Shown: piece by piece, positions 2,837 to 15,672 of the stretch | Position numbering within the stretch: the first letter of the stretch is position 1 | Layout of the letters: each line of letters begins with the position of its first letter | IMG/VR virus record: IMGVR_UViG_3300020436_000022 | Coordinates: 1-40,904 of that record | Direction: 5' to 3' (one strand) | DNA: 40,904 nucleotides | Origin: a virus | Program-made: the position numbers and the translations under genes | The notes under the pieces: generated by a model | What the model was told of the DNA's origin: nothing | The model's input: the letters and a program-made list of their open reading frames with translations, nothing else | Database searches by the model: none

Positions 2837-3162
2837 CCGTTTGGGCAAAGAATGACGATGTACCAGAAAAACAAGATAAGTACAATATCGTTGTTCTAGA
2901 GATTGATTGCGATAAGAAAGTCGCTGACAATCCTAAACTTCCTCGTAATTCTTACATTGTCACTTATATGACAGATGGAGTTGAACATCATGATATTATT
3001 ATTGGTCTCAAGGTCAATATTTTTGATTGTTACTATGATTCCCTAGGTAAGGGTAGTTTACAAAGCATAGAGTACACCAGTGGACAAATCACAGCAAAAC
3101 TCTTCGATGCCAAAAAGTACATTGACGCATCAAATAAAGGAGCTACAAAACCGAAAAAATGA
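2833..3162 (+). CDS. Unknown phage protein, beta-rich
   Basis: A 109-residue protein read from a GTG at 2833 that overlaps the previous stop (GTGA). Alternating hydrophobic segments (YNIVVLEIDCD, SYIVTYMTDGVEHHDIIIGL) suggest a small beta-sheet domain; the C-terminus is Lys-rich (KGATKPKK). I do not recognise the family. The frame ends in an A6 run followed by TGAC, and the +1 frame continues as an open acidic ORF (see 3164 and the related finding). Confidence 0.7.
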   Translation: MTVWAKNDDVPEKQDKYNIVVLEIDCDKKVADNPKLPRNSYIVTYMTDGVEHHDIIIGLKVNIFDCYYDSLGKGSLQSIEYTSGQITAKLFDAKKYIDASNKGATKPKK

Positions 3163-3163
3163 C

Positions 3164-3301
3164 TTGTTTGACTTCAAGTCAGAAACAGAAGATATCGACG
3201 ATTTAGCAGACGAGATCTTCGAGGCACTTTATCAACATACATCATCACAGCGTAATGAAACTGAGACCGACACCAGTCAAATTGATATCAATAACCCCTA
3301 A
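3164..3301 (+). CDS. Possible small acidic protein or frameshift extension
   Basis: An open frame whose plausible protein part starts at a TTG (3164) and runs 45 residues. It is acidic (ETEDIDDLADEIFEALY) and ends inside thyX (47-nt overlap). The frame is open further left, to at least 3080, inside the preceding gene. No standard start has a well-spaced ribosome site: AAAGGAG at 3136-3142 is too far from the TTG. It may be a weakly translated small gene, or be reached from the upstream frame by a +1 shift at the A6-TGAC junction. Confidence 0.4.
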   Translation: MFDFKSETEDIDDLADEIFEALYQHTSSQRNETETDTSQIDINNP

Positions 3302-3905
3302 TGCTGAACAAACTATGGGGTTCATCGCAAGAGTATCCAACCCCAATAATCAGGAAAATCCTAAAGTGGCAGGATTACTTAAATACTGTATTGAACATGA
3401 ACACTGGTCAGTATTTGAGCAAGCAACTATGACATTAGAGATTACAACCACTAGAGGCATAGCAGCACAGATATTGAGACATAGGTCATTTACGTTCCAA
3501 GAGTTTAGTCAGCGATACGCTAATACTAACTTACTGGGTGAGATACCCATACCAGACTTGAGAAGACAGGACGATAAGAACAGACAGAATAGTATAGATG
3601 ATATAGACTCAAAGGAGAAAACTAGACTACAGAAGGCAATAAAGAAGTATTTTGCTGAAGGAATAGACTTATATAATGAACTTATTCGGTCAGGTGTCGC
3701 TAAAGAGTGTGCTAGATTTGTACTTCCGTTAGCAACTCCTACCAAACTCTATATGACGGGATCATGTAGGTCGTGGGTTCACTATATAAATTTAAGAAGT
3801 GCTCACGGAACTCAAAAAGAACACATGGACATTGCTGAAGCATGTCGTAGAGAGTTCATAAGAGAGTTCCCTACAGTATCAGAAGCACTTGATTGGACAA
3901 CATAA
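3255..3905 (+). CDS. thyX: Flavin-dependent thymidylate synthase
   Basis: A 216-residue ThyX. The defining RHR-x7-S motif is present (R75, H76, R77, S85, then QRY). Typical ThyX segments flank it: a preceding EHEHWSVFEQATMT helix-strand and the downstream LPLATPTKLYMTGSCRSWVHYINLR block, whose arginines bind FAD and dUMP. ThyX methylates dUMP to dTMP using methylene-tetrahydrofolate, FAD and NADPH, supplying thymidine for phage DNA. Cyanophages usually carry ThyX rather than ThyA. The ATG at 3255 gives a normal length; the stop TAA overlaps the next ATG (TAATG). Confidence 0.96.
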   Translation: MKLRPTPVKLISITPNAEQTMGFIARVSNPNNQENPKVAGLLKYCIEHEHWSVFEQATMTLEITTTRGIAAQILRHRSFTFQEFSQRYANTNLLGEIPIPDLRRQDDKNRQNSIDDIDSKEKTRLQKAIKKYFAEGIDLYNELIRSGVAKECARFVLPLATPTKLYMTGSCRSWVHYINLRSAHGTQKEHMDIAEACRREFIREFPTVSEALDWTT

Positions 3906-4144
3906 TGGCAATTTACCCAGTTAAAAACCTAAAAACAGGAGAGATGAAAGAACTCCAAATGACTCTTGCTCAATATGAAGAGTGGAGAGACAGCAATCCC
4001 GACTGGGATAAAGATTGGAATGCAGGAGTCTGCGATGCAGTCTCTGGAGTTGGAGATTATCAGGACAAGTTACCTGATGGTTTCAAAGACCGACTTCGTA
4101 ATGTCAAAAAACATCATCCTTACGCTAAATTCGAGGCTCCTTAG
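3905..4144 (+). CDS. Small conserved phage protein of unknown function
   Basis: A 79-residue protein starting at the TAATG junction with thyX. It begins AIYPVKNLKTGEMKELQMTL, followed by QYEEWRDSNPDWDKDW and a basic C-terminus. The opening resembles the first strands of small zinc-ribbon phage proteins, but the cysteines needed to bind zinc are missing (a single Cys). I remember similar proteins from cyanomyoviruses beside phoH. No function can be given. Confidence 0.7.
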   Translation: MAIYPVKNLKTGEMKELQMTLAQYEEWRDSNPDWDKDWNAGVCDAVSGVGDYQDKLPDGFKDRLRNVKKHHPYAKFEAP

Positions 4145-4147
4145 TCT

Positions 4148-4894
4148 ATGCCAGTTAAAGAAAAGAAACAACCTTCTATGGTTGGATTGACCAAAAGACA
4201 GATGAAACGCAAACCCATTAACTCAGGATATCTAACTCAGATAAAACCCCTGACTCCAAGTCAGGAGAAAGTTTTTGATGCGTTCTCTAAGCAAAAGAAT
4301 CTCTATCTATATGGAGCAGCGGGTACAGGTAAAACCTTCATAGGTATGTACCTTGCTCTACAAGAGATTTTAAATGAACAATCATCTTACGATAAACTGT
4401 ACATTGTCAGATCATTAGTGCCTACCAGAGAGATTGGATTCTTACCTGGTGACCATGATGACAAGGCAGAGCTATATCAGATACCATATCAGAACATGGT
4501 ACGCTATATGTTCAAGATGCCTGATGATGCTAGCTTTGATATGCTATATGCTAATCTAAAAGCACAAGAGACTATCTCATTCTGGTCAACATCTTTCTTA
4601 CGTGGTACTACACTGGACAACTCTATTGTATTAGTAGACGAGTCACAGAACTTGAATTTTCACGAGTTAGATAGTATTATAACTAGACTAGGTGTCAACA
4701 CAAAGATTATCTTTGCGGGTGACGCAGCACAAACTGATCTTGTCAAAACAAACGAGAGGAACGGTATCCTAGACTTCATGAAAATCATTCAAGGTATGGA
4801 TGAATTTGAAATGGTAGAGTTTGGTATACAAGATATCATCCGATCAGGTTTGGTGAAATCATATCTGATTAATAAATTAAATCTTGGACTTTAA
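4148..4894 (+). CDS. phoH: PhoH-like ATPase
   Basis: A 248-residue P-loop ATPase of the PhoH family. Walker A is GAAGTGKT (residues 56-63), Walker B is IVLVDESQN (D164, E165), and the typical RSLVPTREIGFLPG and FAGDAAQTDL segments are present. PhoH proteins are predicted RNA/DNA helicase-like ATPases related to the N-terminal domain of SF1 helicases. phoH is common in marine phages and was named from a phosphate-regulated E. coli gene, but its role in infection is unknown. The gene overlaps the exonuclease start by 11 nt. Confidence 0.94.
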   Translation: MPVKEKKQPSMVGLTKRQMKRKPINSGYLTQIKPLTPSQEKVFDAFSKQKNLYLYGAAGTGKTFIGMYLALQEILNEQSSYDKLYIVRSLVPTREIGFLPGDHDDKAELYQIPYQNMVRYMFKMPDDASFDMLYANLKAQETISFWSTSFLRGTTLDNSIVLVDESQNLNFHELDSIITRLGVNTKIIFAGDAAQTDLVKTNERNGILDFMKIIQGMDEFEMVEFGIQDIIRSGLVKSYLINKLNLGL

Positions 4895-12015: not shown

Positions 12016-12023
12016 TATTTATG
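12016..12023 (-). promoter_or_regulatory. Leftward late promoter CATAAATA
   Basis: TATTTATG on the + strand reads CATAAATA on the - strand, 25 nt before the gp4 ATG at 11990. It shares its CAT with the ATG of the rightward gene at 12021, mirroring the promoter at 11988. Confidence 0.7.
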
Positions 12024-12695
12024 ACTCTCAAAAGCGTTACATCCTTCATATCAGACCTACAGACCAGAGGAGGACCTAGTTCTACCAATCAATTTGATCT
12101 GGAGTTTGCTTGTGGCGACAAGTTGAAGCAGTTCATGCAGGATGAATATCAGATAGAAAATACATCTTATAATAACCTCATGGTTGACATGATCAATGAG
12201 GCACAGATACCTGGCGTGTCATTAACCAGTCAGGATGTGAAGCAAGTACACAAGGGTATTACTATGAAACCCGCAATGGCAAAGGTATATAATGAGATGG
12301 ACTTCTCATGTATACTTGATGTCAAGTCAGAAGCATTTAAGTTCTTCACAGCATGGCAACAGTTTGTACAAGGTGCTGACGTTGGTGATCCTGGCGTACT
12401 ATCAGGTAAGAAGGAAGCAAGAGCATTAGCTCAACACTACTATAATGACTATACATGTGATACAATAATAAAGAAGTACGAAAAATTTTCTCCAGATACA
12501 AACAACCTACAACCCACAGCAAACTATCACGTGTTCACCGTACAGTTGCGTAAGTCATATCCATATATGATGTCATCTATACCTTACAGTTCAGCAGGAT
12601 CTGGTGTTGTCAAGTTAAGTATAGGTATGTACTATGAGTATGCTGAGTACACTCCGTTCAAGTTTGAGCAGAGAGTACAAGTCTCAGGAACCTGA
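12021..12695 (+). CDS. Tail-tube-fold baseplate protein (gp54- or gp19-like)
   Basis: A 224-residue protein with the tail-tube pattern: start TLKSVTSFISDLQTRGG, central strand INEAQIPGVSLTSQDV, the FKFFTAWQQFVQG helix, and the C-terminal RKSYPYMMSSIPYSSAGSG, then VKLSIGMYYEYAEY. T4 gp54 (initiator of the tube on the baseplate) and gp19 (tube subunit) share this fold. The opening and the place near gp48 favour gp54, although it is shorter than T4 gp54 (about 320 aa). It is the first gene of the rightward late operon; no clear Shine-Dalgarno precedes its ATG. Confidence 0.65.
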   Translation: MTLKSVTSFISDLQTRGGPSSTNQFDLEFACGDKLKQFMQDEYQIENTSYNNLMVDMINEAQIPGVSLTSQDVKQVHKGITMKPAMAKVYNEMDFSCILDVKSEAFKFFTAWQQFVQGADVGDPGVLSGKKEARALAQHYYNDYTCDTIIKKYEKFSPDTNNLQPTANYHVFTVQLRKSYPYMMSSIPYSSAGSGVVKLSIGMYYEYAEYTPFKFEQRVQVSGT

Positions 12696-12722: not shown

Positions 12723-13421
12723 ATGCCATTACCTGATATTGTTACGCCAACCTACGAGTTGGTCATACCTTCATCGAAGAAGAAATTAAAATATCGCCCT
12801 TTCCTTGTTAAAGAACAGAAGATTCTGATCCTAGCACTAGAAGAGAATGATAGTGTACAAATACTAGAAGCGATAAAGAATATATTTAAAGCATGTATCA
12901 TCACTAGGTTCAAGATGGATGACCTATCTATCTTTGACGTTGAATACATCTTCCTACAATTACGTGGTAGATCTATTCAAGAAACTATTGATGTAGAAGT
13001 TCCATGTGATGATGACCCTGAGACTAAAGTACCAGTGTCATTCCCAGTGGATGCTGTCAAAGTTAACTTTCCAGACGGACATGAGTCAACAATTAAATTG
13101 ACTGAGGACATCGTGGTACAGATGAAGTATCCTAACCTAGAATACTTTACTAAGGTTAACTTCACAGAAGAGACCACTGACCCATACGAGTTAGTGTCAT
13201 CATGTATAGACAGAGTATATAATAAAGGAGAAGATTGTGGATCCTTCACAGCAAAAGAAGCTCAAGCATGGTTGGAGAAACTTACTAACGATCAGTTTGA
13301 AAGTATCCAAAACTTCTTTGACACTATGCCTACTCTTAGGCATGAGCTTACAGTTACTAATCCTAAATCAGGTGTTAAAACGAATGCAGTCATCGAGGGA
13401 TTAGTCAATTTTTTCGGATAG
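12723..13421 (+). CDS. 26: Baseplate hub assembly protein gp26
   Basis: A 232-residue gp26-like protein. Recognisable parts are LKYRPFLVKEQKILILALE, FDVEYIFLQLRGRSI, a central strand with PVSFPVDAVKVNF and the end FFDTMPTLRHELTVTNPKSG. In T4, gp26 is required for baseplate hub assembly; the chaperone role is inferred from the similar place of lambda gpG. The last codons AAT TTT TTC GGA TAG contain a perfect T TTT TTC slippery heptamer, and the -1 frame continues into the gp51-like ORF, so a gp26-gp51 fusion could be made. A weak ribosome site precedes ATG 12723. Confidence 0.85.
   Translation: MPLPDIVTPTYELVIPSSKKKLKYRPFLVKEQKILILALEENDSVQILEAIKNIFKACIITRFKMDDLSIFDVEYIFLQLRGRSIQETIDVEVPCDDDPETKVPVSFPVDAVKVNFPDGHESTIKLTEDIVVQMKYPNLEYFTKVNFTEETTDPYELVSSCIDRVYNKGEDCGSFTAKEAQAWLEKLTNDQFESIQNFFDTMPTLRHELTVTNPKSGVKTNAVIEGLVNFFG
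13409..13415 (+). promoter_or_regulatory. Candidate -1 ribosomal frameshift site T TTT TTC
   Basis: The heptamer is correctly phased with gp26 codons (AAT TTT TTC) and lies 4 nt before the gp26 stop. Slippage by -1 continues as CGG ATA GCC into the gp51-like frame. Six bases after the heptamer a short CCCT/AGGG hairpin can form; it is weak. Confidence 0.6.
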
Positions 13422-13609
13422 CCCTGTTCCAAGAGGGGTTAGCAAGATTCTACACAACGAATTTTGCCTTGGTGCAACACCATAAATATACCTTGAGTGA
13501 CATAGAAAATATGATCCCATGGGAGCGTGACATTTACGTCAATATGCTCTCCAAGTGGTTAAAGGATGAAAGGGAACGTATAGAGAAAGAGAAACGGACA
13601 CGTAGATGA
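13418..13609 (+). CDS. 51: gp51-like baseplate hub assembly ORF without a standard start
   Basis: The frame encodes ALFQEGLARFYTTNFALVQH and then HKYTLSDIENMIPWERDIYV, NMLSKWLKDERERIEKEK, the pattern I associate with cyanophage gp51-type hub assembly proteins following gp26. About 63 residues fit. No ATG, GTG or TTG precedes the conserved part: the frame is open from a TAA near 13379, and only ATT, ATA (13418) or CTG could start it. Two explanations are possible: an unusual start codon, or translation as a -1 frameshift extension of gp26. Its TGA overlaps the ATG of the tape-measure candidate. T4 gp51 is longer (about 250 aa), so the name rests on position and cyanophage precedent. Confidence 0.7.
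   Translation: MALFQEGLARFYTTNFALVQHHKYTLSDIENMIPWERDIYVNMLSKWLKDERERIEKEKRTRR
13481..13488 (+). promoter_or_regulatory. Possible internal late promoter CATAAATA
   Basis: CATAAATA lies within the gp51-like frame, about 118 nt before the ATG at 13606. It matches the late motif but is inside coding sequence, so it may be chance. Confidence 0.35.
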
Positions 13610-15672
13610 AGGCTCGCGTCGCTGCTATGTTTGGTATTAAATTACTGCCTGTATCAGGTAGTATGGTTTCTAGTGCCAAAAATATGCTCGACACTGAGAT
13701 GGAATATATTTCATATCTCAGAAATAGGAAGAAGATGTTCTTCATGACTCAGGTTCAACAGACCAAAGTCACAGTTGTAAGTAAGAAAAGAAAAGAAGCA
13801 GAGAAGAAGGTAAAACAGAAAAGCAAGAGTGGTCTAACTATACCTAAAAAATATTTCAAGAATAAAGGTAAAGACACCCTTAAACAAAGGATGAAGAAGG
13901 TGAAGGGTAGGAACCCTATCGTCAAGCTGAAACGTAAGATGAAGGCAGGGGGACTGAAAGTTGGTCGTAAGGTCAACCGAGTCCTCAAGATAGACAAAGC
14001 TAAGAAGTTTATGTCTAGGCAAGGTCAGAAACTAGGAGCACAGGTAAAGAATGTAGGTAAGAAGGTAGGAGGAAAGGTACTCCAGACGGGTAAGACAGCT
14101 CTATCAGCAGTCAAAGATAAGGGTGCCAACCTAGTCAATAGAGTAATACCAAAGTCAGCTAAGAAGAAAGTAGTACAGAAGTTAGTCAAGACTGGTGCTA
14201 AGAAAGGATTACAGAAGGCAGGAGCAAAGGTAGCAACTAAAATGGCTGCTAAGACCGCAGTCAAGATAGGACTGAAGAAGATACCAGTCGTAGGTTTGAT
14301 AGCTGGACTAGGTTTTGGTCTTCAAAGATTAGCGAAGGGTGATATAACTGGTGCTCTCATGGAAGCAGGATCAGGTATAGCATCTACAATACCAGGTCCT
14401 GGTACTGCTATATCAGCAGGACTGGACGCAGCTTTGGTTGCTAAAGATGTCACTGGTATGAAGGACGGTGGTGAGGTAACTTCACCTACACGAGCACTGA
14501 TAGCTGAGGGTGGTGAACCAGAACTTGTTGTACCACACTCTAAGTTAGGTCCTGTATTCCGTAATCTATTAAGTAAAGTTGGTAACATACTAACAGATGT
14601 CACTACGGGGTTCTTGTCTACATTGCCCGTACCAACAGCAGAATCATCAAGGATATTGGGTGAAACAGCGAAGATAGCAGCAGTATTTGGACAGAAGGGA
14701 AAGCCTCTAGCAGTGTTCAAGGGTGGTAAGATAGCAAAGATGGCTTCAGGATTCCTGAAGAGGGTAGGCGGTGGTGCCATGGGTCTAGCTAAGTCAGCAC
14801 TCAAGATGACACCTATGGGACTAGCAGCTGGTGCAGTTGGATCAATGTTCAATAGACCCGCTAAGGCAGAAACATTTAGGAAGAGAAAAGTAATTAATAA
14901 GATATCAACTGTCAATGGTGTAACCACTTCAGAATCATGGGATTCAGATAGTGCTACATCATACGGGAACTTCCCAATCACTGATACCTATGGTTCAACT
15001 GAAGGGAGACAAAAACCTCATGGTGGTGTGGATATAGGAACTCCTGTAGGTACACCCGTAGGATTTACTGAGGGTGGTAAGATTCTAGCAGCTGGTAAGT
15101 TTGGAGGATATGGAAATATGATGGATGTCTGGTTACCACAGACTAAGATACAGATGCGTATAGCACATCTAAGTAAGTTCATCAAGAGAACTGGTGAGTT
15201 TGTAGCAGGAGAGAAACTTGCTGAGACTGGTGGAGAGGTAGGTGATCCTGGTGCAGGTAGTTCCACAGGACCTCACCTTCACTTTGAGGCAGATAATAAG
15301 AAGAATTCAACTAGGTACGGTGGAGCAGGAAATCCTATGCCTTATGCTCCTTTACTATCATTCACTGCTGTTGAACCTCCAGCTGAGTCTGGTAAGGGTG
15401 GAGTTAGCTATGGTTATCCTTTATCACAGACAGTCAAGTGGCCAACCAGTAACGGTGCTATGGGAGGTCCTGGTTTACTTGGTGCTGTAGGTGGGTTGTT
15501 TAGTAACATGTTTGGTGGTGGTGGCAAACCACAGAAACCTAAGATGATTCCTTACCCAGTGCCTGTGGCAAAACCCATACCAATACCTGTGACTAAAGTC
15601 GTGACAGTCGAAGCAAAGGTAATGGATGCTTATGGTGTCGATACATTCTCAGGGAGATACGTTAAGTTATGA
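13606..15672 (+). CDS. Tape-measure-like protein with M23 peptidase domain
   Basis: A 688-residue protein. Residues 50-230 are Lys-rich and helical, with repeated GLKVGRKVNRVLKIDKAKKF-type segments. Hydrophobic Gly-rich patches follow (KKIPVVGLIAGLGFGL). Around residues 286-315 it has DGGEVTSPTRALIAEGGEPE and LVVPHSKLGP, a signature common near the C-terminus of phage tape measures. An M23 (lysostaphin-like) zinc peptidase domain comes next: H472-GGV-D476 in KPHGGVDIG and H557-L-H559 in GPHLHFE, with all metal ligands present. M23 enzymes cut peptidoglycan cross-links, so it may open the wall during DNA entry. Its place right after gp26/gp51 is where a tape measure would stand. T4 gp29 is not recognisable, so the assignment is inference. 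Confidence 0.75.
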   Translation: MKARVAAMFGIKLLPVSGSMVSSAKNMLDTEMEYISYLRNRKKMFFMTQVQQTKVTVVSKKRKEAEKKVKQKSKSGLTIPKKYFKNKGKDTLKQRMKKVKGRNPIVKLKRKMKAGGLKVGRKVNRVLKIDKAKKFMSRQGQKLGAQVKNVGKKVGGKVLQTGKTALSAVKDKGANLVNRVIPKSAKKKVVQKLVKTGAKKGLQKAGAKVATKMAAKTAVKIGLKKIPVVGLIAGLGFGLQRLAKGDITGALMEAGSGIASTIPGPGTAISAGLDAALVAKDVTGMKDGGEVTSPTRALIAEGGEPELVVPHSKLGPVFRNLLSKVGNILTDVTTGFLSTLPVPTAESSRILGETAKIAAVFGQKGKPLAVFKGGKIAKMASGFLKRVGGGAMGLAKSALKMTPMGLAAGAVGSMFNRPAKAETFRKRKVINKISTVNGVTTSESWDSDSATSYGNFPITDTYGSTEGRQKPHGGVDIGTPVGTPVGFTEGGKILAAGKFGGYGNMMDVWLPQTKIQMRIAHLSKFIKRTGEFVAGEKLAETGGEVGDPGAGSSTGPHLHFEADNKKNSTRYGGAGNPMPYAPLLSFTAVEPPAESGKGGVSYGYPLSQTVKWPTSNGAMGGPGLLGAVGGLFSNMFGGGGKPQKPKMIPYPVPVAKPIPIPVTKVVTVEAKVMDAYGVDTFSGRYVKL

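Follow-up and report, generated by a model that had tools for sequence, protein, structure and literature searches.

In the dnaX cassette of E. coli an upstream Shine-Dalgarno (SD)-like element and a downstream hairpin flank an X_XXY_YYZ heptamer, and the −1 shift at this site gives rise to a shorter product. The tail assembly chaperones of phages lambda (G/GT) and HK97, encoded after the tail tube gene, are made in a short form and in a long form obtained by a −1 frameshift. Frameshifting is reportedly conserved in several groups of T4-like phages, T4 itself using genes 26 and 51, as the abstract of the 2022 study by Vladimirov is said to state. In a review of the T4 tail, gp26 and gp51 are described as hub assembly chaperones, and gp51 is said to be missing from the finished particle (PMC3004832). 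Vladimirov, Gautam and Davidson (2022, Virology 566:9-15), as cited in the PRFect paper, described T4-like phages that carry a short chaperone gene as well as a long, fused one (PMC10885494), and the Adele paper attributes to the same study poly-T −1 slippery sites in the TAC-N genes of T4-like phages (PMC12846349). As far as these citing papers relate it, the concept of frameshifting in T4-like phages has already been published. For cyanophages, Sullivan and colleagues (2010) gave the length of gp51 as only about 20% of that of T4 gp51, and did not invoke frameshifting (PMC3037559).

Here we describe a cyanophage-like gp26/gp51 locus of an ocean phage, found on an uncultured-virus contig (IMG/VR virus record IMGVR_UViG_3300020436_000022, positions 1 to 40,904). 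The whole AT-rich stretch of 40,904 nucleotides that was analysed is referred to as the window. Judging from sequence comparisons, we put the probability at roughly 90% that −1 programmed ribosomal frameshifting at this locus yields a short gp26 (TAC-N) and a long gp26-gp51 protein (TAC-NC), as in lambda G/GT. The locus adds one more case to the T4-like chaperones of Vladimirov and colleagues, which, in the accounts of the citing papers, are gene pairs of the same kind, with short and long forms and a poly-T site in TAC-N. New here are the breadth of the comparison, the quantified stimulators and a tryptic peptide specific for the fusion.

Results

All features described are on the plus strand. 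Gene 26 (12723..13421) encodes the putative short chaperone form, a protein of 232 aa with the C-terminal end ...NFFG, and its upstream neighbour encodes a tail-tube-like protein (12021..12695; phrog_45 tail tube, E 1.2e-22). The zero frame of gp26 matched PF12322 (E 1.5e-60) and phrog_150, baseplate hub gp26 (E 5.3e-70). The gene ends with the codons GAG GGA TTA GTC AAT TTT TTC GGA TAG, in which the heptamer T_TTT_TTC (13409..13415) lies in phase with gp26, just as the original prediction had placed it within AAT TTT TTC; the stop codon TAG (13419..13421) follows after 3 nt (GGA) and not after 4 nt, as had been stated there.

An open −1 frame extends from 13379 and closes with the TGA at 13607-13609. 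Read after a slip from codon CGG (13415) onward, it encodes a gp51 domain (TAC-C; 13415..13609) that begins with RIALFQEGLARFYTTNF... and matched phrog_634 (gp51) with an E of 9.9e-27. A second match, to the last 50 positions at the C-terminal end of phrog_150 (E 2.8e-9), suggests that the phrog_150 family includes some fusion members. A fold search with the gp51-domain model (pLDDT 74) yielded no convincing match. The earliest ATG, GTG or TTG in this frame is the TTG at 13469, which is already within the conserved block, so that the claim of a gp51-like frame lacking these codons before its conserved part was borne out. GenBank gives P-HM2 gp51 (L162:3103-3195) as an ORF of 30 aa whose start lies within the conserved block, and further cyanophage records have doubtful gp51 starts or leave gp51 unannotated.

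The string T_TTT_TTC was observed nine times in the window, with 5.95 occurrences expected. Because the string alone is common by chance in such an AT-rich stretch, relatives were needed to decide on its significance. For this comparison 160 IMG/VR loci were fetched and combined with named phages, giving 171 usable junctions, and clustering of the gp26 sequences at 70% identity resulted in 58 clusters. At every one of the 171 junctions the gp51 domain occupied the −1 frame, and 56 of the 58 clusters carried T_TTT_TT[C/A/T] in phase at the junction; both exceptions were Ackermannviridae. The heptamer is thus kept in relatives, while the rate of in-phase T_TTT_TT elsewhere in gp26 was 0.0011 per codon. 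Members with the heptamer included Prochlorococcus phages P-HM2 and P-SSM2, Pelagibacter phage Mosig, Sinorhizobium phage phiN3, Pseudomonas phage pf16, Delftia phage PhiW-14, Vibrio phages KVP40, EniLVp02 and VmeM-32, Stenotrophomonas phage Marzo, and S-CRM01.

Within the 56 clusters the last base of the heptamer was C in 38, A in 13 and T in 5, and the codon preceding its TTT ended in T throughout, whether N, S, D or A was encoded. The joint log10 P for obtaining the junction heptamer from synonymous codon choice alone was about −19.6 with pooled usage and no correction for relatedness, a raw value that overstates the case because the sequences share ancestry. A spacing of 3 nt between heptamer and stop was found in 46 of the 56 clusters. 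At the loci L143, L149, L152, L154, L160 and L172 the gp26 stop is shifted downstream and the heptamer lies about 24 nt before it.

The absence of an early gp51 start was a feature of most relatives, but not of all. No ATG, GTG or TTG stood ahead of extension residue 8 in 39 of the 56 clusters, whereas about 30% of the clusters had a start codon among extension residues 1-7 or upstream of the extension, and in those independent initiation is possible. On another reading, gp51 could be a separate small protein with its own initiation, through translational coupling at ATA 13418 or from a non-standard codon, and the heptamer could be incidental. T4 gene 26 is recorded with an alternative internal product, 26′, and TAATG-type overlaps occur in KVP40, S-CRM01 and Marzo, both of which would fit such a reading. 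We nevertheless consider it very improbable. The window itself offers none of the three codons before the conserved part, and the position of the start varies among relatives; the heptamer is conserved and is retained despite a nearby ATG in KVP40, S-CRM01 and P-SSM2. Conservation of the extension (consensus FFRIALxHxxLxxYYxTNFALMQHHKYSLTEIENMIPWER) begins at the slip codon and at no start codon. Moreover, T4 gp51 is a full fusion, and the SD-like element of the window (GAGGG, 13395..13399), located 9 nt before the heptamer, is placed for the heptamer and not for the ATA.

This SD-like element is presumed to be an upstream stimulator. To judge such elements, sequences were compared with random synonymous codons under pooled codon usage, and this was done for each sequence separately because the hairpins differ between lineages. 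In the 21 nt preceding the heptamer, anti-SD pairing in the 56 clusters had a mean z of −1.0 (−6.7 kcal/mol) relative to synonymous codons, as against about +0.1 elsewhere. The SD-like cores were mostly located 8-10 nt upstream of the heptamer; 18 clusters had GGAGG at a distance of 10 nt. Downstream, the presumed stimulator is a hairpin (13422..13437; CCCT at 13422-13425, AGGG at 13434-13437) with an 8-nt loop and a fold of −6.1 kcal/mol, starting 6 nt after the heptamer as originally described. A second hairpin, predicted by folding at 13442..13467 with 9 bp and an 8-nt loop, is a possible additional stimulator.

RNA folding directly after the heptamer showed a mean z of −1.94 versus synonymous codons in the 56 clusters and a z of −2.68 at the locus of the window itself, compared with −0.1 to −0.55 for other intervals of gp26. 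Both the folding and the anti-SD signal peaked at the expected places only, indicating that the two stimulators exceed coding constraint and that selection has acted on them. In relatives the hairpins start about 5 nt past the heptamer and their sequence varies by lineage; many relatives, among them those close to the window, have a 6-bp GCCCTC/GAGGGC hairpin, and the stem of P-SSM2 is longer. RNAalifold detected no common downstream structure, either over all clusters or over the clade of the window. The combination of a homopolymeric T run and a hairpin after it would also suit transcriptional slippage, by which the fused frame would be produced on the T run in place of ribosomal slippage. 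This origin is scarcely probable, as six T are a short run for bacterial transcriptional slippage, the run was exactly 6 T in 51 of the 56 clusters although longer runs would be favoured, and an SD-like element acts on ribosomes.

In phage T4 both predicted products have counterparts. T4 gp51 (249 aa) comprises the entire PF12322 domain (residues 1-201) followed by the gp51 domain, and T4 gp26, detectably related to T4 gp51, is the PF12322 domain alone, so that T4 has both products as separate genes. T4 gp26 corresponds to the predicted short form of the window, and T4 gp51 to the predicted gp26-gp51 fusion, with which it is colinear. The joined translation could be aligned without gaps across the junction with gp51 of T4, Aes508, RB49-like phages and RB43. 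The junction residues of these one-gene fusions are VF, LF or LY without a heptamer, those of the frameshift lineages FF or FL, which indicates that the T run is not required by the protein. Unlike the frameshift site described here, the T4 arrangement, which the original prediction did not take into account, consists of two paralogous genes on opposite strands, and its junction has no slippery heptamer. In RB43 (L177:2982-4291) the gp51-like fusion (3001-3744) is followed by a gp26-like gene (3737-4294) on the same strand, whereas the T4 genes are on opposite strands. T4 gp51 proves that a single-frame fusion can exist, but a broken gene, i.e. an ancestral gp26-gp51 fusion split by a frameshift mutation or a sequencing error, is refuted by the occurrence of the same −1 junction, with both frames conserved, at 171 loci, drawn from independent contigs as well as from named phages, in several families.

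No heptamer is present in the two Ackermannviridae clusters, yet their gp51 domain is likewise −1 relative to gp26, which counts against programmed frameshifting at T_TTT_TTC as the explanation. In Ackermannviridae and relatives (loci L165, L173, L178, L180-L185 and L187) the gp51 domain is of the MPWHL type and the sites are only N_NNT_TT[C/T] (A_ATT_TTC, G_GTT_TTC, CTT TTT, GCT TTC), which recall T7 gene 10. Kutter-, Taipei- and Miltonvirus had no early gp51 start; others of the group showed a TAATG overlap.

Two chains matched the AlphaFold model of gp26 (pLDDT 86) over its first 85-95 residues: 3FGX, with a Z of 7.3, and 2OB9, the tail assembly chaperone of HK97, with a Z of 7.2. The HK97 match covers 84 residues within gp26 1-85 only and is modest (Z < 8); the next unrelated chain had a Z of 2.7, and 3FGX and 2OB9 stood apart from all others among the 995 chains compared. 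A search with the gp26 sequence against solved structures gave chance matches only, and a short peptide resembling gp26 matched nothing when searched against plasmids. Taken together with the T4 gp51 fusion and the proposal published for T4-like phages, the fold similarity to HK97 supports the interpretation of gp26/gp51 as a tail assembly chaperone pair, the T4-type equivalent of G/GT in the original prediction. Like the pairs of lambda and HK97, gp26/gp51 is encoded after a tail tube gene and is predicted to yield a short and a −1 frameshifted long form. It differs from them in its heptamer, no sequence similarity between gp26 and their chaperones was found, and gp26, which has an additional alpha-beta part, is roughly double their length.

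The ATG of the next gene (13606..15672) overlaps the gp51 stop codon; an ATGA-type overlap is the usual arrangement, while one subgroup (including L053, L054, L055, L065, L068 and L079) has roughly 270-400 nt between gp51 and the long gene that follows. The gene at 13606..15672 occupies the position of a tape measure gene and encodes a 688-aa protein with an M23 peptidase domain (PF01551, E 3.6e-13), which makes it a candidate tape measure. The designation as tape-measure-like could not be confirmed, as profile comparison of the 688-aa protein and of a 524-aa downstream protein with T4 gp29 gave no match. The P-HM2 equivalent carries an M15 peptidase annotation, and among relatives the downstream proteins vary in content and have lengths between about 490 and 1080 aa. 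The M23 domain here, the M15 annotation in P-HM2 and the variable lengths suggest domain swapping in this protein family.

Discussion

From the heptamer, its phase and its surroundings we infer the slip itself, its rate and its role in tail assembly as follows. Most ribosomes would terminate gp26 at the TAG and release the short form ending in ...NFFG. A minority would pause at T_TTT_TTC, aided by the upstream SD-like element and the downstream hairpin, and both tRNAs would slip back by one base, TTT TTC re-pairing as TTT TTT. Translation would then continue in the −1 frame and give the gp26-gp51 fusion ...NFF|RIALFQ.... The layout would be that of the E. coli dnaX cassette, with a different heptamer and a shift predicted to lead to a longer product, not a shorter one. 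By analogy with lambda G/GT, the tape measure protein would be coated by many short and few long chaperones, and the C-terminal domain of the long form would recruit tail tube subunits. For the window, the predicted tryptic peptide of the fusion is TNAVIEGLVNFFR and the C-terminal peptide of gp26 is TNAVIEGLVNFFG.

As a tentative wider proposal, the chaperone junction of T4-like phages might have been rebuilt repeatedly, the supply of the long chaperone being set by three different routes: a canonical T_TTT_TTY cassette, as in cyanophages and many other phages, duplication of the gene, as in the T4 group, and a weaker, T7-like N_NNT_TT[C/T] site, as in Ackermannviridae. The TAATG overlaps present in part of the latter could then also release a free gp51 domain.

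With programmed frameshifting, the small size of cyanophage gp51 would be explained by its being the tail of gp26 reached through the frameshift and not a shrunken gene, which would settle an annotation oddity; many cyanophage records have doubtful gp51 starts or none. Frameshifting and gene duplication could be compared cleanly in the natural series of gp26-gp51 junctions, and a very abundant group of marine viruses would gain a candidate tail chaperone that is testable and whose fusion peptide is defined.
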